Source: a virus. Taken from it: a stretch of 20,899 nt of DNA. Of the stretch, positions 4,501-20,680 are shown piece after piece. A program made the translations under genes and the position numbers. The stretch lies in IMG/VR virus record IMGVR_UViG_3300020442_001797, positions 1-20,899 of that record; one strand, 5' to 3'. The first letter of the stretch is position 1. Each line of letters starts with the position of its first letter. The notes under the pieces were generated by a model. The model did not search any database, had not been told where the DNA came from, and saw only the letters and a program-made list of their open reading frames with translations.

Positions 4501-5774
4501 TCTTTAAGGAGCGGCAAACTTCCTCGACGCTTTTGTGTTCCTAGGTCGCCGGGGTGGGTTATGCTTAATAAGTCAATTGAGTCGATTGGCACGTGTTGGT
4601 AATCACTAACAGACACTTTGTGTGTCTTTGCATATTTTAAAGGTATACGTGAGTGATTATGCGTATCTTCTATGTTTATGGTCCTATGGTTAAGTGTATT
4701 CGCGTAAGATACATCTAATGGAAATAGATCAGAAAAGCTATCCAATTGGTTTCCATCGGCATCATACCGTAAATCGCCTAACGGGTTGGGTTCGACGGGG
4801 GACAATCGGCTAGGTTTAATGTCTCGTTTTTGTAAAACATAGCTTACTGCTCTATCATATATCTTTTGATCGCCCTTTAATAGATTGACCCCAAGTTGAA
4901 TACCACGTATAGGTTTTTTAAAGGTGTCGAGGCTGCACGCGGATTCAAATAGAGAGATGTCCCTTTCATCCGACTTGATATCCAGCAGTTCAAGCGTATA
5001 CTCACTATCAGGCTCTTCACTTAGAGTGGGAAAACAATCCGGAGTGGCAGTAAGAAGCTTTCTAAAATCAGAAGCATCAGCACTGTTGCAGCACTCATGG
5101 TGTGTAAAACCTGAAAAGAAAGCCTGAGTTCTGAGCTTGGTGTTTGTCAAGGCCCGGGTACCAACCGGGTTAACAATATCCTTTCCCGCTGCCCGTATCG
5201 AATTGAGAAGTGTTTTATATTTAAAACCAATGTCAGTAGTGTCAAGGGCTAACTTGTTAATCAAATTCCTATCTGATAGTACGTCAATGCAAACCTGTGA
5301 CGAATTGTTAAACAAATCTTGTGCCTCAGTTGATGACGCATTAATCATTTGATTAATTCGAGACCACCAATTAGCTTGACCAAAGACGTGTTTATCTGCG
5401 TAATCTCCATAGTATCTATAATATGAGAAGTCAAAAGTATCTCGACTATAGTTTTCTGGATATCGAATCTTGGGTGGTCTTTTTCCAATGTACCCAGGAA
5501 GATAGAAAGGGAAAATTTCTAAAACAATGTGAATCCTGTTTGGATAGGCAGATCTATAAGCATTGTATTCGTTGTTGGTTTCTTCGTAGGTTCGGGATTG
5601 AGTATAAGTCGCACGACCGGAGATGTAACCAGATTTCAACGTGCTACCGAGAAAAACAATATTAATCATGTCATCGCAACTGGTGGGCGATGAAGGCGGA
5701 TCGGGTGTATCGGGTGTATCGGGTGATCCGGGTGAACAACAAGCGTTACAAGATTTTTTAGGTGGTCTACCCAT
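1518..5774 (-). CDS. Giant 1418-residue probable virion protein with Cys/Pro-rich N-terminus
   Basis: I do not recognise a named family. The start is firm: ATG at 5774 with AGGAGA 6 bases upstream. Residues 9-13 contain CNACC, followed by a Pro/Asp/Ser linker (residues 14-33, PDTPDTPD type) encoded by 9-base repeats. Residues ~36-230 form a separate mixed-composition domain with many Tyr/Trp and scattered Cys (C162, C228, C229). Residues ~538-720 show repeated units resembling beta-propeller blades (EWVQIG; LYLA then IEIYQYD; NWFKVI; LLLK then IYVLKES; SFELLF). The remainder is Asn/Ser/Pro/aromatic-rich and globular rather than shaft-like, ending in a beta-type tail. There is no signal peptide or membrane segment. 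It sits between two fibre-type genes (9 bases after the upstream one), so a role as a large adhesion or baseplate-associated surface protein is inferred. Confidence 0.85.
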   Translation of the reverse strand: MGRPPKKSCNACCSPGSPDTPDTPDPPSSPTSCDDMINIVFLGSTLKSGYISGRATYTQSRTYEETNNEYNAYRSAYPNRIHIVLEIFPFYLPGYIGKRPPKIRYPENYSRDTFDFSYYRYYGDYADKHVFGQANWWSRINQMINASSTEAQDLFNNSSQVCIDVLSDRNLINKLALDTTDIGFKYKTLLNSIRAAGKDIVNPVGTRALTNTKLRTQAFFSGFTHHECCNSADASDFRKLLTATPDCFPTLSEEPDSEYTLELLDIKSDERDISLFESACSLDTFKKPIRGIQLGVNLLKGDQKIYDRAVSYVLQKRDIKPSRLSPVEPNPLGDLRYDADGNQLDSFSDLFPLDVSYANTLNHRTINIEDTHNHSRIPLKYAKTHKVSVSDYQHVPIDSIDLLSITHPGDLGTQKRRGSLPLLKDYPENGDAKLFRVAHAPDWFKTYDIPVDFMAVTQRNQTKVFVKRPLIDFDSLSSQEFIYGGKGNPLCGTMEGTYTVGSYPYDTRNLAHFLLRTANEKDGENNLHLGVKSSEDWLQNEWVQIGDLISGGNTSSGGVAKLACHRYTLNDSTSTTLYLARQPNITTKPGEIEIYQYDPDGIPDGPPHDAPGNWFKVISTDLNTILRDDLPLDHRPDVGSNGRFLENCRIVDFKVKHVNNEENTSENDKYLLLKDARQCIYVLKESNGSGSFELLFYTMGYDASMNAACDKLVVSACNNSTTTGSSPTFNPARTADLWANTRTGERNVFGLFTLPDGTHNNWFNTSLFSIPDSPATNAFVEPDVVFSEANGYLLELASCHLVNMEAAGNAFVFTPSRRFRNDNSDLIMGMCQYIYPSVRTGTSTDEIEKRRGSKTLYQTYVHAGGQFKTGWNCRKSDLFYAKDIPSRGIRSNFLNSPAPFFHIGPDSYPLHSSNFDKPQIVLSHPVDIALENSLSYGESTISPHIHQGLNNNIDYIDPPGYEVAFPFYRYPNVLFKSENEAPLSGPDHVVVMNERFPTPKESTNDRGMFSNRNTDKSYITERNEDFHRLSRPGKVFLFKYTNYHGWSYRKMIPDRNGTFPNQTEIVDARQSSYLPPGLDRLTGHNVTGKPGLDSGALGETFVQDDRVFDRTVGSLGGFVSPFGATGPHTQHGDYGDTGKFCRFVNTIDPAINPRDVHKTYYIRDYKTMVFSDRSKNYPTAKMSDGTYRYRDVGSPSPNVEFHNDIHTFFIKSGLESKPHRRGIQHIPFYQNSRFATTPDLLDLDIVPADNCIRWPYIPFPFHKNQANKTINGDNVSQLGFSYLFQSPFLTTAAGESMGAANPLFQGLDSPNQYLSFTSRLYHPPLSFNLRAFTNNNRSDRLFQYFQLAQSKKYDSHITGAGSSRTIHEDWCDKYILPRRQFRIKAVHIRDDGTEDVAFSEIFYMNVFSRRRESIAVMS
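3615..4163 (-). other. Beta-propeller-like repeat region within the 1418-residue protein
   Basis: Residues ~538-720 of the 1418-residue protein show a recurring order: an aromatic-plus-I/V strand (EWVQIGDLI, NWFKVISTDL, SFELLFYTMG), a Lys/Arg-containing strand (KLACHRY, RIVDFKV, KLVVSAC), then hydrophobic strand pairs (LYLA / IEIYQYD, YLLLKD / IYVLKES). In FG-GAP/integrin-alpha-like propellers a comparable cycle reads roughly W-x-Q-x-G-x-D-I, V-x-x-S-x-D, V-A-x-G-A, V-x-V-Y-x-Y-D. The match is by eye and partial; two to three blades are suggested, fewer than a full propeller. Confidence 0.35.
5701..5736 (-). repeat. Four 9-base tandem repeats encoding the Pro/Asp linker
   Basis: Four consecutive units (tcgggtgta, tcgggtgta, tcgggtgat, ccgggtgaa on the plus strand) encode the PDTPDTPDPP-type linker near the N-terminus of the 1418-residue protein. 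The first two units are identical. Unit number changes would stay in frame and only alter linker length. Confidence 0.9.
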
Positions 5775-10754: not shown

Positions 10755-11762
10755 TTAGAAGGAGCCTAAGATAACTCTACGGTTATCAAGAACACCAAAT
10801 CCAAGTTCAGCAAAACCATAGTAGCCAGCTCGCTGCTGTCTGTGAAGAGTAGGATCTTCAAAGACCTGAACTGCCTGCTTCATTGGCATAACGAAGCTAT
10901 CGTTAGCTGACTGATCAAGACCAACAACCAACTCAACGTCGGATGTTTGAACAGCCCCGCTTAGACCCTCAGTGAAGAAGGTCTGATACTCTTGGCCTTC
11001 GCCAAGCTCATCGAGATCGTGAAGATTCACACCAAAGATGCGTGTGATTGGAGCACCACCTTCAGAAGCGGTGTAGATTTCTCGACGAGTAACTTCGTCT
11101 ACCTGATCAAGTCCCCAGTTACGCACATCTTCGAGTGCTTCTGGAGAAACATAAAGGTCAGTCAAGCGACCGCGATTAGCGGAACCGGTGTTACCGCCAG
11201 CGTTTCGTCTCATAACAGTCTGCATGAGGGAAACAAGTCTCTTGCTGAACAATCCAGCAGTTGCATCGCCATCGTAAACCAAAATGTTACGGTCAACGCC
11301 AGCTGCTAGGATAGTGTGCCAACCATCGTCATTCATTTTCTTGACGAAGCCAGCTTCCATAACCTGCATCGCACGGGCAGCAACGTCCCAACGAGCTTCA
11401 CGAGCAAAACGCAGAAGATAATCAACTGAGCTTGTGATGCTATAAGTTGGAATCATGACGTAGTCGCTTTCGACCGCACGTTCAGGAATACGACCGTGAC
11501 CTGGGTTGGTGTAAGCAACATGCTCACCTTCAAGTCCCGGTGAAATCAAGTCGAGTGGATACTCAGTAGATGCACCCGGCTCAACATTGATGGTCTCGAA
11601 AATATCACCAAGGATATTTCCAACCAATACACCCTTACGCAAAGGGAGTTCAAGTGCCTTAGCAAACTCGCGTTGAGCTGCGTAAGCCACATTCTGGTCA
11701 TTATTACCAGTCTGCTTCAAAAGTGAAATAAATTCTTCACTTGGTCTTTCTGTATATGACAT
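10755..11762 (-). CDS. Major capsid protein, HK97-fold type
   Basis: A 335-residue protein with the size, position and sequence style of HK97-fold major capsid proteins: a short N-arm, then beta-type segments and the characteristic aromatic/acidic middle (LTDLYVSPEALEDVRNW, residues ~202-219, and ITRIFGVNLHDLDELG, ~240-255), and a C-terminal AGYYGFAELGFGVLDNRRV. It has no long N-terminal delta domain, which fits assembly on a separately encoded scaffold from the gene upstream. It forms the icosahedral shell. The ATG at 11762 has AGGAGA 9 bases upstream; a 26-base gap follows the decoration gene. Arg codons are mostly CGN type rather than AGA, unlike the neighbouring long genes, as expected for a very highly expressed product. 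A strong terminator follows. Confidence 0.9.
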   Translation of the reverse strand: MSYTERPSEEFISLLKQTGNNDQNVAYAAQREFAKALELPLRKGVLVGNILGDIFETINVEPGASTEYPLDLISPGLEGEHVAYTNPGHGRIPERAVESDYVMIPTYSITSSVDYLLRFAREARWDVAARAMQVMEAGFVKKMNDDGWHTILAAGVDRNILVYDGDATAGLFSKRLVSLMQTVMRRNAGGNTGSANRGRLTDLYVSPEALEDVRNWGLDQVDEVTRREIYTASEGGAPITRIFGVNLHDLDELGEGQEYQTFFTEGLSGAVQTSDVELVVGLDQSANDSFVMPMKQAVQVFEDPTLHRQQRAGYYGFAELGFGVLDNRRVILGSF

Positions 11763-11788: not shown

Positions 11789-12280
11789 TTAGGCACCGTG
11801 ATTAGGAAGGTTGATGTAAACTTTAGCGTAGCCGTCTGCGTCTTTACGAGACATGAAACGACCGATAGCCAAGTTACCCGAAGCTGTGGAATTCTTAGCG
11901 GTTGTCGAAATATGCCCCTGAGTTTCAGATGCATAAGCCAAGTCACCAGCTTTAGGAGAGCCATCAACTTGGTCGGTAACAACCCAGCCACGAGTCAAGA
12001 CGGTAACTTTACCACCCAATTGAACTTCATCTTTATACTGGTTAAGATGAGTTCTAGTTAGATCCTTATTAACAACATCGTTAAGAATGATGCCAACTGG
12101 AACATCTGTTTCGGCAGCTGCTTGAGGTGAAACGGTGTTTTCACCTTGGTCAAGGGCTGCACCCGAAGCACCAGCAAGTGCTGCTGCATCTAAACAAACA
12201 ACTTCGCCTCTAACGCCAGTGGCTGACGAAAAATAGCTAATGTCTGTTGATTCTTCATATCTATCTGCTTTGAGAGCCAT
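11789..12280 (-). CDS. Capsid decoration (cement) protein
   Basis: A 163-residue Ala/Gly/Thr-rich protein located directly between scaffold and major capsid, the standard place for a head decoration protein. The sequence pattern (GEVVCLDAAALAGASGAALDQG, then VPVGIILNDV, VTVLTRGWVVTDQV, KAGDLAYASETQGHIS, AIGRFMSRKDADGYAKVYINLP) matches the small beta-barrel cement proteins of phage heads, which sit on shell trimers and stabilise the expanded capsid. The ATG at 12280 has AAAGGAGA close upstream, nearly identical to the site of the capsid gene, so both are probably made in large amounts. Assignment rests on location plus pattern. Confidence 0.75.
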   Translation of the reverse strand: MALKADRYEESTDISYFSSATGVRGEVVCLDAAALAGASGAALDQGENTVSPQAAAETDVPVGIILNDVVNKDLTRTHLNQYKDEVQLGGKVTVLTRGWVVTDQVDGSPKAGDLAYASETQGHISTTAKNSTASGNLAIGRFMSRKDADGYAKVYINLPNHGA

Positions 12281-12304: not shown

Positions 12305-12994
12305 TTACTTTGTGTTAAGGACGTGAGATTCAAACCAGTCAGCAACGCTGGCTCTAGTTTTTTCGGATTCGTCCAATTCTTCGGACTCCACCAAAGTTGC
12401 TTCAGAAGACTCAAGATCTTCAAACGCTTCTTGGTTAATTTCTTCTGCTTCCGCTTCTTCTTCAGCTTTAGCTTCCTTTTCTTTCTTTTTCTTTTCTATA
12501 GCTTCTTTCAGCTCTGGTGGCATACCAGCTTCAGCTTCATCTTCTTTTTCGTCCTTTTTTGCTTTCTTTTTCATGAGAGCAACAACGGCTTCAAAAGCTT
12601 CATCAGCTAGAGACTCGAAAGTAGCAAGAGATTCTTCAATCTCTTCAGCTTCAAAGCCAGCTTCTTCCAGAGAAGCCTTACGCTTCATCATAGCTTCTTT
12701 TTTCTTCATCTTGTCCATTTCCTTCATAGCTTCTGCTAATTCAGTTGTGGACGTATTAAGTTGATCTTCAAGTTCAGCAACGCGAGCCTGAGTAGATTTA
12801 ATCGTTTCATTAAGCTCATCAATAGTTGCTTGACTTTCTTCAGCCTTTGCTTCAAAAGCTTCGACCTGAGAAGCAAACTCTTTATCTTTTGCTTCTTCGA
12901 TTTTAGCTTTGATAGCTTCATTTTCAGCCTTAGCTTCTGACAGCTGAGTCTGAACTTCGGCCAACTGCTTTTCTAACAGCGAAGTATCTGACAT
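12305..12994 (-). CDS. Separate scaffolding protein from internal start (229 residues)
   Basis: In-frame ATG at 12994 (residue 274 of the fusion) begins MSDTSLLEKQ and is preceded by a perfect AGGAGA at 13007-13002 with a 7-base spacer, as good as the site of the capsid gene. The product would be only the coiled-coil scaffold without the protease. The same nested arrangement is known from lambda C/Nu3. Residues 1-120 form heptad-like Leu/Ala/Glu helices; residues ~135-210 are Lys/Glu-rich; the last ~15 residues (VADWFESHVLNTK) are probably the capsid-binding end, by analogy with other scaffolds. Confidence 0.75.
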   Translation of the reverse strand: MSDTSLLEKQLAEVQTQLSEAKAENEAIKAKIEEAKDKEFASQVEAFEAKAEESQATIDELNETIKSTQARVAELEDQLNTSTTELAEAMKEMDKMKKKEAMMKRKASLEEAGFEAEEIEESLATFESLADEAFEAVVALMKKKAKKDEKEDEAEAGMPPELKEAIEKKKKEKEAKAEEEAEAEEINQEAFEDLESSEATLVESEELDESEKTRASVADWFESHVLNTK

Positions 12995-13813
12995 AATAAT
13001 GTCTCCTAAAATAGTGTGATTAGAATTGATATCTTGTACGTTGAATTGTGCCGTGCTTTTATTATTTAATATAACACTCCTGGGGTTGGCTGGTTTTGAA
13101 ACCAATCCTTTACCAGAAAAGGATATATTGGAAAGAGCACGACCAACCTTATATCCTTCGTATTCGCCCGACCCACCGTAAGCACGCAAATGCTTAGTTA
13201 GAAAGGCTGATTCTTCGTTTCTCGCCAGAAGCTTAGAGTTACCTTCGCTGTCTGTTAAAGCGTAATCGAAACCAGAGAAAAGGCATTCCATTGAAACAAA
13301 CCACTTGCCTTCTTTAATTTCAGCTATGATTTGCTGCATCCTCTCTCTGTTTTCTGCACCGGTCCAGCTGTTGTATAAAACAGCTTGTGATATTATGTCA
13401 AAATCTTCTGGCATGTCTGAGTCGTCTGCTACAGCCTTGCCATCTTTAGTTAAAACATAACTTCCGGTTATATGCCCAATGATATCATTCTCATCGTGCA
13501 TAAAGTTAAATTGTTTATCTTCTGGTGTATTTCTAGCTTCCCATGTGGCTTTCGCTAGGAACACATCGTCGTTTTTATTCCAACCGCATGAAACCAGAAC
13601 AGACTCTATGTAATGTAAGTCTATCTGGTCTTTATTTTCAGCTTTTGCAATCCCCAGTTTCTCCAGTTCTATATCTGTTAAATCTTTGAGTTCTGGAAAG
13701 GGGACTTCACTCTTTTTCAGGGTGGCAGCAGAACAATACGCAACACTGGCGGTGCTTTTAACAAGCTCGCCAACGCCGTCTTCAATTTCTCTTTGATATA
13801 TTTTTATTGTCAT
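12305..13813 (-). CDS. Head maturation protease fused to scaffolding protein
   Basis: A 502-residue two-part protein. Residues 1-260 resemble phage prohead proteases: FNFMHDENDIIGHI (His106 as candidate catalytic His) and KWFVSMECLF (Ser174 as candidate nucleophile), then GKGLVSKPANPRSVI near the domain end. Residues ~274-502 are a highly charged Glu/Lys/Ala-rich coiled coil (LLEKQLAEVQTQLSEAKAEN onward), typical of internal scaffolds that are digested before DNA entry. The ATG at 13813 follows TGTGAGGT. A strong internal ribosome site and in-frame ATG at 12994 would also yield free scaffold. It lies after portal and before decoration and capsid genes. The fused enzyme would cut scaffold and itself inside the procapsid. 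The protease call is by motif and layout; the third catalytic residue is not assigned. Confidence 0.8.
   Translation of the reverse strand: MTIKIYQREIEDGVGELVKSTASVAYCSAATLKKSEVPFPELKDLTDIELEKLGIAKAENKDQIDLHYIESVLVSCGWNKNDDVFLAKATWEARNTPEDKQFNFMHDENDIIGHITGSYVLTKDGKAVADDSDMPEDFDIISQAVLYNSWTGAENRERMQQIIAEIKEGKWFVSMECLFSGFDYALTDSEGNSKLLARNEESAFLTKHLRAYGGSGEYEGYKVGRALSNISFSGKGLVSKPANPRSVILNNKSTAQFNVQDINSNHTILGDIIMSDTSLLEKQLAEVQTQLSEAKAENEAIKAKIEEAKDKEFASQVEAFEAKAEESQATIDELNETIKSTQARVAELEDQLNTSTTELAEAMKEMDKMKKKEAMMKRKASLEEAGFEAEEIEESLATFESLADEAFEAVVALMKKKAKKDEKEDEAEAGMPPELKEAIEKKKKEKEAKAEEEAEAEEINQEAFEDLESSEATLVESEELDESEKTRASVADWFESHVLNTK
13002..13007 (-). promoter_or_regulatory. Internal ribosome binding site AGGAGA for free scaffold
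   Basis: The minus strand reads AGGAGA, then CATTATT, then ATG. Spacing is 7 bases, and the site matches the AGGAGA seen ahead of the decoration and capsid genes. It lies inside coding sequence for ILGDII, just at the boundary between the protease-like and coiled-coil parts. Confidence 0.8.
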
Positions 13814-13828
13814 ATTTTTACCTCACAG

Positions 13829-13865: not shown

Positions 13866-15887
13866 CTATTTTGTCCCAAAAGAATGTTCTACAAACATCC
13901 CAATGACAGATTTTTTATAATTTTCCATTGTCATATTAGAGGGGGATATTTTTTGGTTCTTTAGCTGTCTCTTGAATGAAGCAGAGCTTTTGTTGGTAAT
14001 TGAGAGGGCGTTAAATATTGATTTATCATCCACGTCGGACAAAGGCTCTAGGTTCAATAATACGTCTATTTTAATAGACTCCAACTCTATAGCCTCAGCT
14101 TTTGTTAGTTGTCTCATGTTGGTTTTTTCTTTAGTTCCAAGATAGGCCTTTGAAACACAACTGAGAGAGTCGAAGGTGTTGGAGGCCCATATAAACATTT
14201 CAGCTAAACCGGGTTGGCTTTTAGGTGTATCAACCCTTTGTTTTCTAGGCTCTTCGTCTATTTTGAAGGGAGGTCTTCCATTATCGTTTAGTGGGCGTTT
14301 TTCAGGGGCTGGCTGTTTTGATTCTTGCTTTTTATCATTTATCTCGCTTTGCTTCTCCATTTTTTCTAAATCATTCTTATGATTGGCGTTATGGAAAGGA
14401 CTGGCTTTTGGAGGTGCTTTATCTGCATCTCTCGCTTTGTCTTCTCTTTTTAGCCTTACCTTCTCTACTTCGGGAACTTCTTTGAATCTTTCAAGTACGG
14501 TTTCATGAGATATAATATCCCTGTCGGCAAGTTGGATCAGAAGTTGTTTTTCTGAAGACTCGTCAGATAAACTCATTTGGTCATAGACAACGTGAGCGGC
14601 CTTTCTGAATCCCATAGCCTTACGAACAAACTCAAGCTCTTTTTCCCAGAACTTTGTTAGTTGATCTCTACCGTACTGAAGTCTCTCGACTAGAGTTTTC
14701 AGAGATATAAAGTTGTTTGTAAACCCGCCACTCTGTCCAGCCATACCGGTTAGAGTTGGGGGAACACCCAATCCAGCATAAATGCTATTCAGAACAGATT
14801 GATACTTTTCAGAACCCAGAAATTTGTATACTTGACTATTAGATTCTGTATACGAAAGCTCTGGCCCCCAAACAAGCTCCATCGTTCCTCCTCCAACATT
14901 ACTAGCTAGAATATTTCTTAGCTTATTAATAGCTGTTTTGTTAGGTAGGATTTTGTGATCTAGACTACCGAGAGTCCAAAGTCTTATGTTTGAGATAGCC
15001 CCATCTAAAGCAGATAAGTCAGCTAAACGCATCTTCTCTAACATTATAATGTCATCTAGGATAGCGTATACCAACGGATGTGCCCATTGTTGCCAGTCAT
15101 CTTTTTTGTAATAAAATACTGAAAGCCTATCGGGGTCTAACGGTATTTTTCTTTCGCCATTTTTTATAGCATTTTTAACATTAACGGGCAGTGTCTCTAA
15201 TACTTTGGCTGGGATAGCACCATCTTTGAAGTTATCAAAAAAGCTATTTGCTTGCAGTTGATAATTTTTTCTACCTAAAAATAGATTGATCTCGCCATTT
15301 TTAACATCAACAGTTAAGGGGTTGAAGAAGTTGTACCTCCAAGGAACAACAGACTGTTCTATTTGGGGAACCTCTAGAGTTATATCGGAACCTAAAGATT
15401 TTACATATTTTGTGATCTCTGGCGTTAGCTGAGTGTAACTTTTATATATAAACACTTGTCCGGTTTTATACAAGTTGTTTAAGAACCGCTCCGACCGCTC
15501 TTTGCCACCTATCTTTTTCCACCACTGCTTCAAAAACTTTTCTACGCTTTTGTTCTCGTGTACAATGTCGATACCTTGACAACCAAAATCGCCCATAAGG
15601 TCGATAACATTTCTGACAATTCCAACTTTGTCATACGCATCCATGCACATCTTGATGGCACGTTTAGCTTGGCGTGGTATTTGTTCGTCTGGTCTAAATG
15701 CGTAGTAGTCTTGGCTTTTGAAACCGGGTCTGACAGATCTGTTGGTCTCTATGTCAAGAAAAGTGTCTCTGTGATAAGCTTTGGTTATGCCTTCGTATTC
15801 ATGTATAGAGCTGGAAAATTCTTCAAAGGCTTTTGCCTTACCTGTAGAATCGCCTTCGTTCCAAGTTATAAGAGGGTCGTTTGGCAT
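13866..15887 (-). CDS. Portal protein
   Basis: Portal vertex protein, a ring through which DNA enters and leaves the head. The length (673 residues) and order after terminase fit. Recognisable features: N-terminal stretch with RQAKRAIKMCMDAYDKVGIVRNVIDLMGDFG, the core with FYYKKDDWQQWAHPLVYAILDDI, and the portal hallmark GLGVPPTLTG. The C-terminal ~190 residues comprise a highly charged Lys/Glu/Pro linker and a helical end domain, longer than in many portals. I chose the ATG at 15887 rather than an in-frame TTG at 15902 because AGGA lies 6 bases before this ATG and overlaps the TTG-side codons. A candidate promoter lies ~50 bases upstream. The terminase stop is 68 bases before the start. Confidence 0.9.
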   Translation of the reverse strand: MPNDPLITWNEGDSTGKAKAFEEFSSSIHEYEGITKAYHRDTFLDIETNRSVRPGFKSQDYYAFRPDEQIPRQAKRAIKMCMDAYDKVGIVRNVIDLMGDFGCQGIDIVHENKSVEKFLKQWWKKIGGKERSERFLNNLYKTGQVFIYKSYTQLTPEITKYVKSLGSDITLEVPQIEQSVVPWRYNFFNPLTVDVKNGEINLFLGRKNYQLQANSFFDNFKDGAIPAKVLETLPVNVKNAIKNGERKIPLDPDRLSVFYYKKDDWQQWAHPLVYAILDDIIMLEKMRLADLSALDGAISNIRLWTLGSLDHKILPNKTAINKLRNILASNVGGGTMELVWGPELSYTESNSQVYKFLGSEKYQSVLNSIYAGLGVPPTLTGMAGQSGGFTNNFISLKTLVERLQYGRDQLTKFWEKELEFVRKAMGFRKAAHVVYDQMSLSDESSEKQLLIQLADRDIISHETVLERFKEVPEVEKVRLKREDKARDADKAPPKASPFHNANHKNDLEKMEKQSEINDKKQESKQPAPEKRPLNDNGRPPFKIDEEPRKQRVDTPKSQPGLAEMFIWASNTFDSLSCVSKAYLGTKEKTNMRQLTKAEAIELESIKIDVLLNLEPLSDVDDKSIFNALSITNKSSASFKRQLKNQKISPSNMTMENYKKSVIGMFVEHSFGTK

Positions 15888-15893
15888 GTTAAT

Positions 15894-15897
15894 TCCT
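15894..15897 (-). promoter_or_regulatory. Ribosome site deciding the portal start
   Basis: Minus strand AGGA, then ATTAAC, then ATG at 15887. The upstream in-frame TTG (15902) would put this site inside the coding region and has no purine-rich site of its own, so ATG is favoured. Confidence 0.65.
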
Positions 15898-15939
15898 ATC
15901 AATCAGATTGTAATTGGATTGTTAATTGAACTGTTACTA

Positions 15940-15955: not shown

Positions 15956-17932
15956 CTAATAAATTCCGTTCATACCTTCTGTGAACCAGTTCGGACCGGA
16001 GAAATCATCTCCACCTTTCTCTTTTGACTTCTCTACGGTAGCGAATCCTCCGTAAAAATTATAGATAGTCGCTTCGGGTGCTCTTGCTATTGTTCTAGCG
16101 GCCATATTAGCCATGAGCAAAGAAGAATACCTGTCTTTTCTGAGTTTCCCCTTTTTGCCTGTACCAATTACTGTTTCTGGTGTATCCCACTTGTCACGAC
16201 CTGTAGCGGTTTGTGTGATTTGAATCATGGTTAGTTCGTCTTTGAGGTCTTCTATTTCTAACACGCACTGTTCTAGGGTATCATACGTACGGCCTTTTAA
16301 TCCATCTTCTGCATTAGCTATTCCTAGACTTACAGAGTCAAACATAGGAAATAGCAAAACCTTGTCTTCTAGGTCTTTTCTTAGGCCGTGATTAGCCTCG
16401 GATAACCACTCATATCTAGAAAATTGACACATCTCTAAAATATGTAATCCTCTATTGTCGTCTGTATCTTTTGGTTTGTTTTCATCTATTACTGGCCAGA
16501 TTGGTAATTCGTCTTCTTGGATCTTATCTTGGTCGTGCAATGATTCCATTACAGCAATACCTCCACCTCCAGCGTCCATAGCTATGTGGATACATGGGAA
16601 TATTCTCATAAGATCTCTAATTTTCCTAGAGCAGTATGCGTAAAAGTCTGACTCTTTCGAGTATCCGCTCTTAACTTTTTCTTTGTGCTGATCTCTATTT
16701 GTTGTCCAGCAATGAACTATTCTTCTATGATCGGCATTCGCCTCCAAAACAACTATGCTGAAATTATCAACTTCAGATGCGGGGTCAACTCCAAAGATAT
16801 ATTTTTTGTTGGGGTCTCCTCTTAGTTGTGCCTGAAAACATATCTCATTATCCTTAGAGTCTTTGACCTTGCCTTTATCATCAGTCACGCAGCTCTCGAT
16901 CAGGGTACGCTTAAAGAAGCCCTGAGAATCGCGTGTAAAGCACGCTCCGAACTCCATCTGATATATTCCAGCATGTACCGTTGCCTTCGATCTGGCGACC
17001 TGTGAGGCGTCCATGAAGCCTTCTGGTAAAAGCTCGTAGGGTATTCTTATGATTGAGTAATCTTTCCAGTTAAAGTCCTTTGGTGGATCATCTCCGAAAA
17101 TTTCTCGTAATCTATTTTCCCTACCTTGGCTCTGGATTATTGACTTCCATTTTTTCCAGTATTCAGCAAAGTGGTTGAAGTCGTAATAAGCAGTCCCGCT
17201 TAATATAATCTGGTTATCCTTCTTATCTAATATGGACTCAGAATCCTGTTCTATTTCTATGCCTAGTTCTTGAGCTTTCTTTTTTGCCGCTATCTTTTTT
17301 ACGTTTTCTATAGGATCAGAGCTAACAGCAGCAAACCCAGCGACAACTGTTTCAAAGATATCTCTAGGAATGGAAGCGAACTCATCGCTAATAATATCAT
17401 TAGCTCTCTGGCCTCTAATCTTTTGTCCGTCACCCAGAGGGAGGCAAGTGACGCGAGAGCCGTTGATACGCATAACGCAACGATCAACATCTCGTCTGGG
17501 TCCACTGTTTGCATCGCACATACTCCTGAGTATTGGGGAATTATTCCAGATTGTTTCCATGTATTCAAAAAGAACTTTAGACTGCCTGAACGCAGCACCA
17601 ACAACTACCACTTTTCTCTCAGGTAATAATAAAGCTCTAATCATTGAGTATAGAGATAATATAAATGATTTTCCAAAACCACGACTAGCAATAAGCATGG
17701 GAAATCTTCTGTTCCACATCTCGCACAAAAAGAGTGCCTGTGAGGGGAGGATGTTTATATTGAAGACTTGTTTGCACAGAAAGGAGAAGTACTCCGGCCT
17801 AGTCATTAGCCATAGAAGCTTGTAGTGGTAGTCATCTTCGTTGAAGTTTACCAATTTAAACGGATTGAAAACATTCCTATCTTCAAGATCTAAATTAAGC
17901 CAAGCTTCATTTATTTTTTTAAGGTTGTTCAT
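15956..17932 (-). CDS. terL: Terminase large subunit
   Basis: ATPase-nuclease motor that cuts concatemeric phage DNA and pumps it into the prohead. Visible motifs in the 658-residue protein: Walker A ASRGFGKS (residues 82-89), Walker B DIISDE (179-184, Asp183/Glu184), coupling motif SGT (245-247), and RNase H-like nuclease acidic residues in FGVDPA (Asp383), IAMDAG (Asp453) and the RDKWDTPE stretch (Asp580/Asp583). An inserted Lys/Glu-rich segment (~205-240) lies between ATPase motifs. Its ATG overlaps the ClpP-like stop (TAATG). A separate small terminase is not seen in the window. Packs into the portal encoded by the next gene. Confidence 0.95.
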   Translation of the reverse strand: MNNLKKINEAWLNLDLEDRNVFNPFKLVNFNEDDYHYKLLWLMTRPEYFSFLCKQVFNINILPSQALFLCEMWNRRFPMLIASRGFGKSFILSLYSMIRALLLPERKVVVVGAAFRQSKVLFEYMETIWNNSPILRSMCDANSGPRRDVDRCVMRINGSRVTCLPLGDGQKIRGQRANDIISDEFASIPRDIFETVVAGFAAVSSDPIENVKKIAAKKKAQELGIEIEQDSESILDKKDNQIILSGTAYYDFNHFAEYWKKWKSIIQSQGRENRLREIFGDDPPKDFNWKDYSIIRIPYELLPEGFMDASQVARSKATVHAGIYQMEFGACFTRDSQGFFKRTLIESCVTDDKGKVKDSKDNEICFQAQLRGDPNKKYIFGVDPASEVDNFSIVVLEANADHRRIVHCWTTNRDQHKEKVKSGYSKESDFYAYCSRKIRDLMRIFPCIHIAMDAGGGGIAVMESLHDQDKIQEDELPIWPVIDENKPKDTDDNRGLHILEMCQFSRYEWLSEANHGLRKDLEDKVLLFPMFDSVSLGIANAEDGLKGRTYDTLEQCVLEIEDLKDELTMIQITQTATGRDKWDTPETVIGTGKKGKLRKDRYSSLLMANMAARTIARAPEATIYNFYGGFATVEKSKEKGGDDFSGPNWFTEGMNGIY

Positions 17933-18585
17933 TACTTTAAACTGTTAATCGAATTGAATTTTCTTGTGTTAAGGACTAGGTCTGCAAACCCATAATAAAC
18001 TGATTCGTTGGCGTCTAGATACCAGTCTCCGTCTTTAAATTTTCTTTTCAGGTAGCTTTTAACTTTATCAAAGTCAGGTTCGCTGTAATGCTCTTTAAAA
18101 TACTTTCCGTCTTTACAGCCTTCTGCGTATATATCTAACATTGTCTCTGTTTGGCGTTTTTCAAATGCTGCCCCTTTTTGTACATCTAGATAACTTCCGC
18201 CGTAGCCGCTGGAACCAAAGTGGCACATAAAATATGCGTGAGGCATCATGACTCTATTGTCGGCAGCTTGCAGAATAATACTGCTCATGGATTCTGCTTG
18301 ACCATAAGCCAGTATGGTTATGTAGGATTTAGCCATCATGATGGAGTCAAATATGGTCATTCCATCATTCCAGTTACCTCCAACACTATGCATGTGAATT
18401 AATATAGGATCATTGGATAGATTATCTAATAACCTAATGTTCTTATAAAAAGAGGAGGCCATTTTATAGTCCACGCCGGGATCTTCATCTGAATTTGCAA
18501 CATAGCTATGAAGAAAAAGCTCTCTGTTCTTAACGTCTACGCCGTACGAATTTATATCTGATATCATATCCACATTAATTGTCAC
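17932..18585 (-). CDS. ClpP-like serine protease (S14 family)
   Basis: A 217-residue protein with the ClpP fold signature: PILIHMHSVGGNWNDGMTIFDSI (oxyanion-site glycines at residues 69-70), GQAESMSSIIL with Ser99 as nucleophile, MCHFG with His122, and GDWYLDANESVYYGFAD with Asp187 as the likely third member. Known family roles are ClpXP proteolysis in cells and, in many phages, processing of prohead proteins. I infer either a phage head-maturation enzyme or a regulator of host proteolysis. The start is GTG at 18585 with an excellent GGGAGGA site and overlaps the ERCC4 stop by 4 bases (GTGA). An ATG at 18567 is an alternative but has no better site. The head module already has another protease-like domain, which makes this one's target uncertain. 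Confidence 0.88.
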   Translation of the reverse strand: MTINVDMISDINSYGVDVKNRELFLHSYVANSDEDPGVDYKMASSFYKNIRLLDNLSNDPILIHMHSVGGNWNDGMTIFDSIMMAKSYITILAYGQAESMSSIILQAADNRVMMPHAYFMCHFGSSGYGGSYLDVQKGAAFEKRQTETMLDIYAEGCKDGKYFKEHYSEPDFDKVKSYLKRKFKDGDWYLDANESVYYGFADLVLNTRKFNSINSLK

Positions 18586-19347: not shown

Positions 19348-19592
19348 TTTGGTTTTACCCTTGTTACTTTTATTTCGTGCATCATCTCTTTGAGCATTTT
19401 TGAGGTTGCTGAAGACTCGTCTTGTTTGAGTATTATCTCAGAAAATCTACAATACGCTAGGTAGCAAGCATCGTCGGGATTATCAGCTTCCACAAAAATA
19501 GTGGGATACATCGAGTTAAACTCTTTTAATCTGAATTTCTTTAATCTAGCTATGACAGCCGTCAGATCAAATGTAACATTGTATATAATCAT
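19344..19592 (-). CDS. Hypothetical protein, 82 residues
   Basis: I do not recognise this protein. It begins MIIYNVTFDLTAVIARL, continues with IFVEADNPDDACYLAYCRFSEIIL and ends in a Lys-rich tail (IKVTRVKPK). The alternating hydrophobic pattern suggests a small alpha/beta fold such as a ferredoxin-like regulator, but there is no motif. The start ATG overlaps the dehydratase stop (ATGA) and its stop overlaps the HNH start (ATGA), so it is certainly translated if its neighbours are. It could be an accessory factor for the nuclease or terminase next to it. No signal peptide or membrane segment. Confidence 0.75.
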   Translation of the reverse strand: MIIYNVTFDLTAVIARLKKFRLKEFNSMYPTIFVEADNPDDACYLAYCRFSEIILKQDESSATSKMLKEMMHEIKVTRVKPK

Positions 19593-20680
19593 TTATCCAA
19601 GTCATGTTCTACCATAAGTTTTACAAGGTCTTCAAACGAATGTTTTGGCTTCCATCCTAACTTATTGTTTGCCTTGCTGCAATCTCCTCTCAAATAATCT
19701 ACTTCTGCTGGTCTATAAAATTCAGGGTCTTGAACAACACATGAAGACCAATCATTTATTCCAACGTGTTTAAATGCTACGTCTAAGAATTCTCGAATAG
19801 TATGAGTTTCGCCAGTGCAGATGACATAATCATCAGGATTATCCTGTTGAAGCATCATCCACATTGCTTCCACATAATCTCCTGCATACCCCCAATCTCG
19901 GAATGCTTCCAAATTACCTAGACGTAGCTTTGGAAAGCTGTACTGAACTCCAGATGCAAATAATAAGTCACCTTCTTTGCAGGCTTCTGAAATATCAGTA
20001 TATTTTAAATTTAGATTTTCGAGCCATTCCATAAACTCTCCAATCCACTTAGTGATTTTTCTAGTTACGAAGGTTTCTCCTCTTCGTGGACCCTCGTGAT
20101 TAAATAATATACCAGCACTAGAATGAATATCATAACCTTCTCTAAAAAGTCTTGTTAGATGGTGTGCGGCACATTTAGCTATAGCGTAGGGGCTTTGTGG
20201 CAGGAACTTTGTTTCTTCATCTTGGTATTTTTCCATAGGCAGCTTGCTATCGAAATCTCCATCAGTAGGTCTTTCATCATAGTTTCTTCCAAACATTTCA
20301 CTAGAGCTTGCTTGGTAGAACCTAGCATTAGTTAATTTTAGATCCACAATGCTTTGTAGTATATTTAGACAGCCCTTGCCCGTGATATCCCATGTTAATG
20401 CAGGTTGCTTAAATGATACAGCGACATGAGATTGAGCTGCTAGATTGTAGATTTCATCTACGTCTACGTGTTCTGAAAGGACTCTGATTATACTATGCGA
20501 GTCAGTTATATCTCCTTGAACGAGCTTAAAGTTATCATGACTGAGAATATTCTTTATTCTACCGGTGTTGTCGTTGCTAGTTCTCCTAGCTACTCCTATG
20601 ACCTGATAGTGTTTAGAAAGTAGTAGATCCGCTAAGTGGCTACCGTCTTGTCCTGTTACACCAAAAATAATCGCTTTCAT
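19589..20680 (-). CDS. gmd: GDP-mannose 4,6-dehydratase
   Basis: Converts GDP-D-mannose to GDP-4-keto-6-deoxy-D-mannose, precursor of GDP-fucose and other deoxysugars. Short-chain dehydrogenase features: NAD(P)-binding GVTGQDG (residues 7-13), NLAAQSHVAVSF (79-90), SSSEMFG (125-131, Ser126/Glu128 as likely catalytic pair), SPYAIAK (Tyr165/Lys169), LFNHEGPRRGETFVTRK (192-208), RDWGYAGDYV and EFYRPAEVDYLRGD near the end. Compared with E. coli Gmd it has a ~15-residue insertion after the SSSEMFG motif and a ~28-residue insertion before LGNLEAFRDWG, while a C-terminal loop before YRPAEV is shorter. The ATG at 20680 has GAGGAGA upstream. Known as an auxiliary gene in cyanophages; may serve surface glycan synthesis in the infected host or sugar modification of virion parts. 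Confidence 0.93.
   Translation of the reverse strand: MKAIIFGVTGQDGSHLADLLLSKHYQVIGVARRTSNDNTGRIKNILSHDNFKLVQGDITDSHSIIRVLSEHVDVDEIYNLAAQSHVAVSFKQPALTWDITGKGCLNILQSIVDLKLTNARFYQASSSEMFGRNYDERPTDGDFDSKLPMEKYQDEETKFLPQSPYAIAKCAAHHLTRLFREGYDIHSSAGILFNHEGPRRGETFVTRKITKWIGEFMEWLENLNLKYTDISEACKEGDLLFASGVQYSFPKLRLGNLEAFRDWGYAGDYVEAMWMMLQQDNPDDYVICTGETHTIREFLDVAFKHVGINDWSSCVVQDPEFYRPAEVDYLRGDCSKANNKLGWKPKHSFEDLVKLMVEHDLDK

Follow-up and report, generated by a model that had tools for sequence, protein, structure and literature searches.

A conserved internal start signal argues for a nested scaffold gene within a putative protease/scaffold fusion of environmental phages

Does a single open reading frame (ORF) among the head genes of an uncultivated virus encode one protein or two? 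The ORF lies in the IMG/VR virus record IMGVR_UViG_3300020442_001797, whose whole 20,899 bases were analysed as one stretch (the window, to which all position numbers refer). The original prediction was that this ORF fuses a protease-like domain to a scaffold, and that a free scaffold is also made from an in-frame ATG at 12994, preceded by AGGAGA with a 7-base spacer at the junction of the two parts. This anatomy was confirmed on the sequence, the ATG being in frame with the fusion ORF and lying after the conserved N-terminal domain, just before an acidic coiled-coil region. The elements of the locus are as follows.

12305..13813, minus strand: protease/scaffold fusion ORF, 502 aa, 56.1 kDa, fused in all relatives examined
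13820..13824, minus strand: Shine-Dalgarno (SD) sequence GAGGT of the full-length start, 6-base spacer, with GAGG here in most relatives
12995..13813, minus strand: N-terminal domain, putatively of clan SH type (herpesvirus assemblin/prohead protease-like), plus linker, assigned by hhalign to the Slash-family N-terminal domain and by the Slash model
13002..13007, minus strand: internal SD sequence AGGAGA (TAGGAGA with 13008), invariant in close relatives, its Gly codon without synonymous change
12992..12994, minus strand: internal start codon ATG (Met274), Met in 62/62 distinct genes, GTG or TTG in some distant relatives
12305..12994, minus strand: nested gene, predicted free scaffold of 229 aa, 25.7 kDa, pI 4.4, coiled-coil-like

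The conserved core of the N-terminal domain ends near residue 249 (13067) and is followed by a linker of ~24 residues (about 250-273) whose protein sequence is poorly conserved. The C-terminal region is acidic, charged and coiled-coil-like, and Pfam and PHROG searches gave only weak matches of coiled-coil type to it. Its position, its acidic coiled-coil character and analogy suggest that it functions as a scaffold. Matches of the fusion protein to DivIC, SMC and Rz-like spanin were discounted as coiled-coil matches of low complexity.

On the minus strand, the late genes run from an ERCC4-type nuclease gene through those for the ClpP-like protease, the terminase large subunit and the portal to the fusion, after which come the cement protein, the probable major capsid protein, a gp80-like protein and large structural proteins. 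The order terminase-portal-fusion-cement-capsid is constant in relatives.

15956..17932, minus strand: terminase large subunit (PHROG 2, 1.5e-24; Pfam PF03237)
13866..15902, minus strand: portal protein, from a weak PHROG 64 match (0.0036) and position
11789..12280, minus strand: capsid cement protein, Phage_cement / XM1 gp53-like (Pfam PF22758, 1.1e-11; PF23982, 2.2e-12)
10755..11762, minus strand: probable major capsid protein, from position and size only, same order in relatives

Neither Pfam nor PHROG matched the probable major capsid protein. As listed, the portal ORF opens with a TTG codon that lacks an SD sequence, and comparison with a relative (L002) suggests that translation really starts five codons further downstream, at an ATG (about 15887).

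We then examined whether the internal site is kept in homologous genes. In a first set of relatives, 80 from IMG/VR with 64-94% identity, TAGGAGA-N7-ATG is present in 80/80. It is also found in all but one of 19 further distinct ORFs, the sole exception (L150) being an ORF of just 265 aa that stops short of the site. Apart from L150, no relative carrying the fusion was found to have lost the site, the loss that the original prediction had named as speaking against it. Among the relatives examined, none was found with protease and scaffold as separate genes. The codons of the site were analysed, with a tree, in 62 distinct genes of the window group. The Gly codon within the site is GGA in 62/62 genes (overall use of GGA, 28%), and the other Gly columns hold mixed codons, the next most uniform of them having 76% of one codon. 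On the tree, no synonymous change is inferred at the site Gly codon, whereas the 14 other conserved Gly columns have 14-22 each. At the site Ile codon, 60/62 genes have ATA, and the tree gives 1 synonymous change, compared with 8-20 for other Ile columns. Of 93 conserved columns with 3-6-fold degeneracy, these two have changed least. Constraint of this kind on the nucleotides is as expected for an internal start that would yield the 229-aa free scaffold.

In IMG/VR, relatives of the fusion protein are encoded on more than 570 contig stretches, and a tblastn search of named phages with this protein gave no match. Judged by sequence, the window group is one of abundant environmental phages without a close isolate.

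The same site also persists in distant relatives. Scanning genome contigs turned up three homologues of greater divergence, in metagenome-assembled genomes (L161, L162 and L163, with 57, 45 and 34% identity), and all three keep an SD sequence and an ATG at the junction. Bacillus phage Slash and Microcystis phage MaeS were reached through terminase similarity and gene position, a link that profile comparison then confirmed, and the genes concerned are annotated as hypothetical, without a nested gene.

L082:11928-12947: Slash gp35, PHROG 16389 (unknown function)
L083:11927-12991: MaeS QJT70421, PHROG 16389 (unknown function)

Proteins of this family have 339-354 aa and occupy the same gene position as the window fusion, and their N-terminal domain is homologous to that of the window (hhalign E 4.7e-6). 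They are shorter, lack an insertion with His208 and share about 20-30% identity with the window protein in this domain. As in the window, SD and start lie at the junction: AGGAGG is followed by ATG, GTG or TTG, in another reading phase and over different peptides. The distance from SD to start is 7 bases in the window group and 7-10 in the Slash/MaeS family, and the start codon is always in frame. The peptide encoded at the SD is IGD in the window group and L161, KEN in L162, KES in L163, GG in Slash and KEE in MaeS, and in L162 and L163 the SD likewise lies in a different reading phase from that of the window group. The synonymous constraint, together with the persistence of SD and start across different phases and peptides, therefore indicates selection on the nucleotides. 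Since the signal is kept through changes of phase, of peptide and even of start codon, alternatives to translation initiation are hard to sustain. To our mind this is a comparative demonstration of selection on a nested scaffold gene, in which the start signal stays and the encoded peptide changes. The contigs of L161, L162 and L163 were binned into SAR202, Flavobacteriales and Gemmataceae genomes, and because these bins disagree, the host hints that they give are weak.

One alternative is that the fusion alone is translated, with self-cleavage in the linker releasing the free scaffold and AGGAGA surviving as the relic of a former gene fusion. Prohead proteases can self-process, as SPN3US gp245 does in cleaving off its own C-terminal propeptide (PMC7411985), and the poor conservation of the linker is compatible with this reading. 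However, a relic would decay, yet the site has accumulated 0-1 synonymous changes against 8-22 at comparable codons. It persists, moreover, down to 34% identity and, in other reading phases, in the far Slash/MaeS family, and we regard the relic as very improbable.

We also compared the strength of the start sites, calculating the anti-SD pairing energy at the 20 in-frame ATG, GTG or TTG codons of the fusion ORF. The internal ATG has the strongest pairing of all 20 candidates (-7.3 kcal/mol), the full-length start reaching -6.9 kcal/mol. In 67/67 genes the internal SD pairs slightly more strongly than the full-length SD (-7.3 kcal/mol, compared with -6.8 on average), with a gap of 0.4 kcal/mol in the window and 0.5 on average over the 67 genes. 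The site of the capsid gene (-8.7 kcal/mol) is 1.4 kcal/mol stronger than the internal one, so that the equal strength originally claimed for the two does not hold. Nor can much more scaffold than protease be expected from site strength, as had also been proposed, the internal site being just 0.4 kcal/mol above the full-length start; SD strength by itself does not predict a large scaffold excess. When the same scan was applied to Mu I as a control, the annotated Mu Z start ranked first, and in lambda C the best internal codon was the ATG at codon 309, with AGGAGG. In the lambda record J02459.1 (L165), nu3 is annotated from codon 239 of C; a start at codon 309 (record position 5342), where the internal SD and ATG score best, would give a product of 131 aa.

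The local mRNA is unstructured at both starts, with 60-nt minimum free energies of -6.1 and -6.3, whereas random gene positions give -9.8. When the aligned upstream sequence was inspected by eye, no conserved promoter was evident ahead of the internal start. This region is AT-rich, at 71% compared with 60% over the gene, a composition that suits initiation at an unstructured site. A further alternative is that the internal SD-like sequence is no start but a programmed ribosome pause between the domains, aiding folding of the protease. Pauses at domain boundaries can aid folding, and the sequence sits exactly at such a boundary. A pause, however, would work without a start codon, and yet the SD is in every case followed by an in-frame ATG, GTG or TTG; the accessible mRNA, too, fits initiation. 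This explanation appears marginally less probable even than the relic. A nested gene giving free scaffold is strongly supported by the sequence comparisons, with the invariant TAGGAGA-N7-ATG of the 80 relatives and the absence of synonymous Gly changes bearing out what had been predicted.

What is the N-terminal domain? In the window protein, this domain had no credible match in Pfam, PHROG or NCBIfam, and sequence profiles gave none in the PDB. No match of the window protein was found to Peptidase S49 (PF01343), whereas lambda C matches this profile at 1.5e-44. The Pfam profile of Peptidase_S78 (PF04586, HK97 gp4 type) did not match the window protein either, and the domain was therefore not filed under S78. 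The predicted model of the window domain itself was poor (pLDDT 48) and gave no fold match. The predicted model of the Slash N-terminal domain was better (pLDDT 73.5, pTM 0.73), and its six best PDB matches are the proteases of HCMV and EBV (best E 5.5e-4, probability 1.00), at modest TM-scores of 0.42-0.48. The pseudorabies protease ranks 8 among its PDB matches, and many phage prohead proteases are among its matches in BFVD. The assemblin-like fold thus belongs to the Slash-family homologue and reaches the window domain through the hhalign alignment at E 4.7e-6. Three residues are invariant in the window group.

13496..13498, minus strand: codon of His106, candidate catalytic His, invariant in 62/62
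13472-13474, minus strand: codon of His114, equally invariant His, 62/62
13292..13294, minus strand: codon of Ser174, candidate nucleophile in VSME, 62/62, also in the Slash/MaeS family

The domain thus carries candidates for the conserved catalytic Ser and His of clan SH proteases. The Slash-family fold and the invariant His and Ser point to a clan SH prohead protease and not to the S49 type of lambda C, and this putative identity is the most likely one for the window domain. The non-S49 character of the protease-like domain had been predicted, and is consistent with both the unmatched S49 profile and the modelled fold of the Slash family. Slash gp35 and MaeS QJT70421 in turn appear to be clan SH protease/scaffold fusions in which the nested scaffold gene has gone unannotated; we found no work on a Slashvirus scaffold in the literature. 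For the large environmental group, Bacillus phage Slash and Microcystis phage MaeS, gene annotation would accordingly be corrected to two products, and PHROG 16389, of unknown function, is now linked to herpesvirus-type prohead protease-scaffold fusions.

With protease and presumed scaffold in one ORF beside the portal and capsid genes, and a conserved SD and start at their junction, the locus is of the nested lambda C/Nu3 and Mu I/Z type. Like lambda, it combines a protease-scaffold fusion with an in-frame internal start for free scaffold, in the gene order portal-fusion-decoration-capsid; the annotated lambda record has the same arrangement, and the likeness to C/Nu3 drawn in the original prediction stands. 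The protease of lambda C is, however, a Peptidase_S49, and direct comparison with gpC gave no sequence link to the window family. In Mu, as its annotated record shows, and in relatives such as KS10, a non-S49 protease gene (PF10123) likewise contains the scaffold gene in frame within its 3' end (I/Z), and Mu Z also uses AGGAGA. In contrast, comparison with a single Mu sequence detected no similarity between gpI and the window protein, and the window has a separate cement protein and another gene context. In herpesvirus UL26/UL26.5 the scaffold is at the C-terminus of the protease protein and there is a separate scaffold-only product, made from its own 3'-coterminal mRNA. The window shares with this system an N-terminal protease of the same fold class (as seen via the Slash model) but uses an SD-driven internal start, presumably on the same mRNA. 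The two-product logic is thus already known from lambda and Mu; what is new is its strict conservation in a lineage for which it had gone unannotated.

Very probably, then, the locus encodes an assemblin-type protease/scaffold fusion and an independently initiated free scaffold, which would co-assemble and later be cleaved. We infer production of both proteins, their ratio, their co-assembly and their cleavage along the following lines. Initiation at 13813 would give the 56 kDa protease-scaffold fusion, and independent initiation at 12994 through the internal AGGAGA, presumably on the same mRNA, would give the 25.7 kDa scaffold without protease. Because both share the C-terminal scaffold, we propose that they co-assemble in the procapsid, where the fusion would be present in a smaller dose than the free scaffold; a large excess of the latter is plausible by analogy. 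The scaffold part would carry the protease into the growing shell, the protease-free scaffold filling the rest, and after assembly the protease would destroy the scaffold, and probably itself too, before DNA fills the head.

A separate ClpP-like gene directly precedes the terminase gene, so the head module has two protease-like genes.

17932..18585, minus strand: ClpP-like (S14) protease (PF00574, 1.2e-22; PHROG 94 'head maturation protease', 4.5e-31)

Its product has Ser99/His122 at the places of the ClpP motif, and the gene is syntenic in relatives. These features, with the PHROG 94 match, would suit an arrangement in which the nested gene is real and the ClpP-like protein does the maturation proteolysis, the N-terminal domain of the fusion having another role or being inactive. 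Against this stand the herpesvirus/prohead protease fold of the domain family and the invariance of His106, His114 and Ser174. Furthermore, about 9 kb to each side of TerL in Slash and in MaeS yielded nothing homologous to the window ClpP, and we consider this division of labour unlikely. The ClpP-like protein may serve as an additional head protease. A shared descent with herpesviruses, rather than reinvention, of the combination of scaffold-fused assemblin-type protease and independently made scaffold in the environmental group and the Slash/MaeS phages, with the ClpP-like protease added in the environmental branch, seems somewhat less likely still. Adjoining the head genes, at 19589-20680 on the minus strand, is a gene for GDP-mannose 4,6-dehydratase (PF16363, 2.8e-111), a sugar-nucleotide auxiliary gene.
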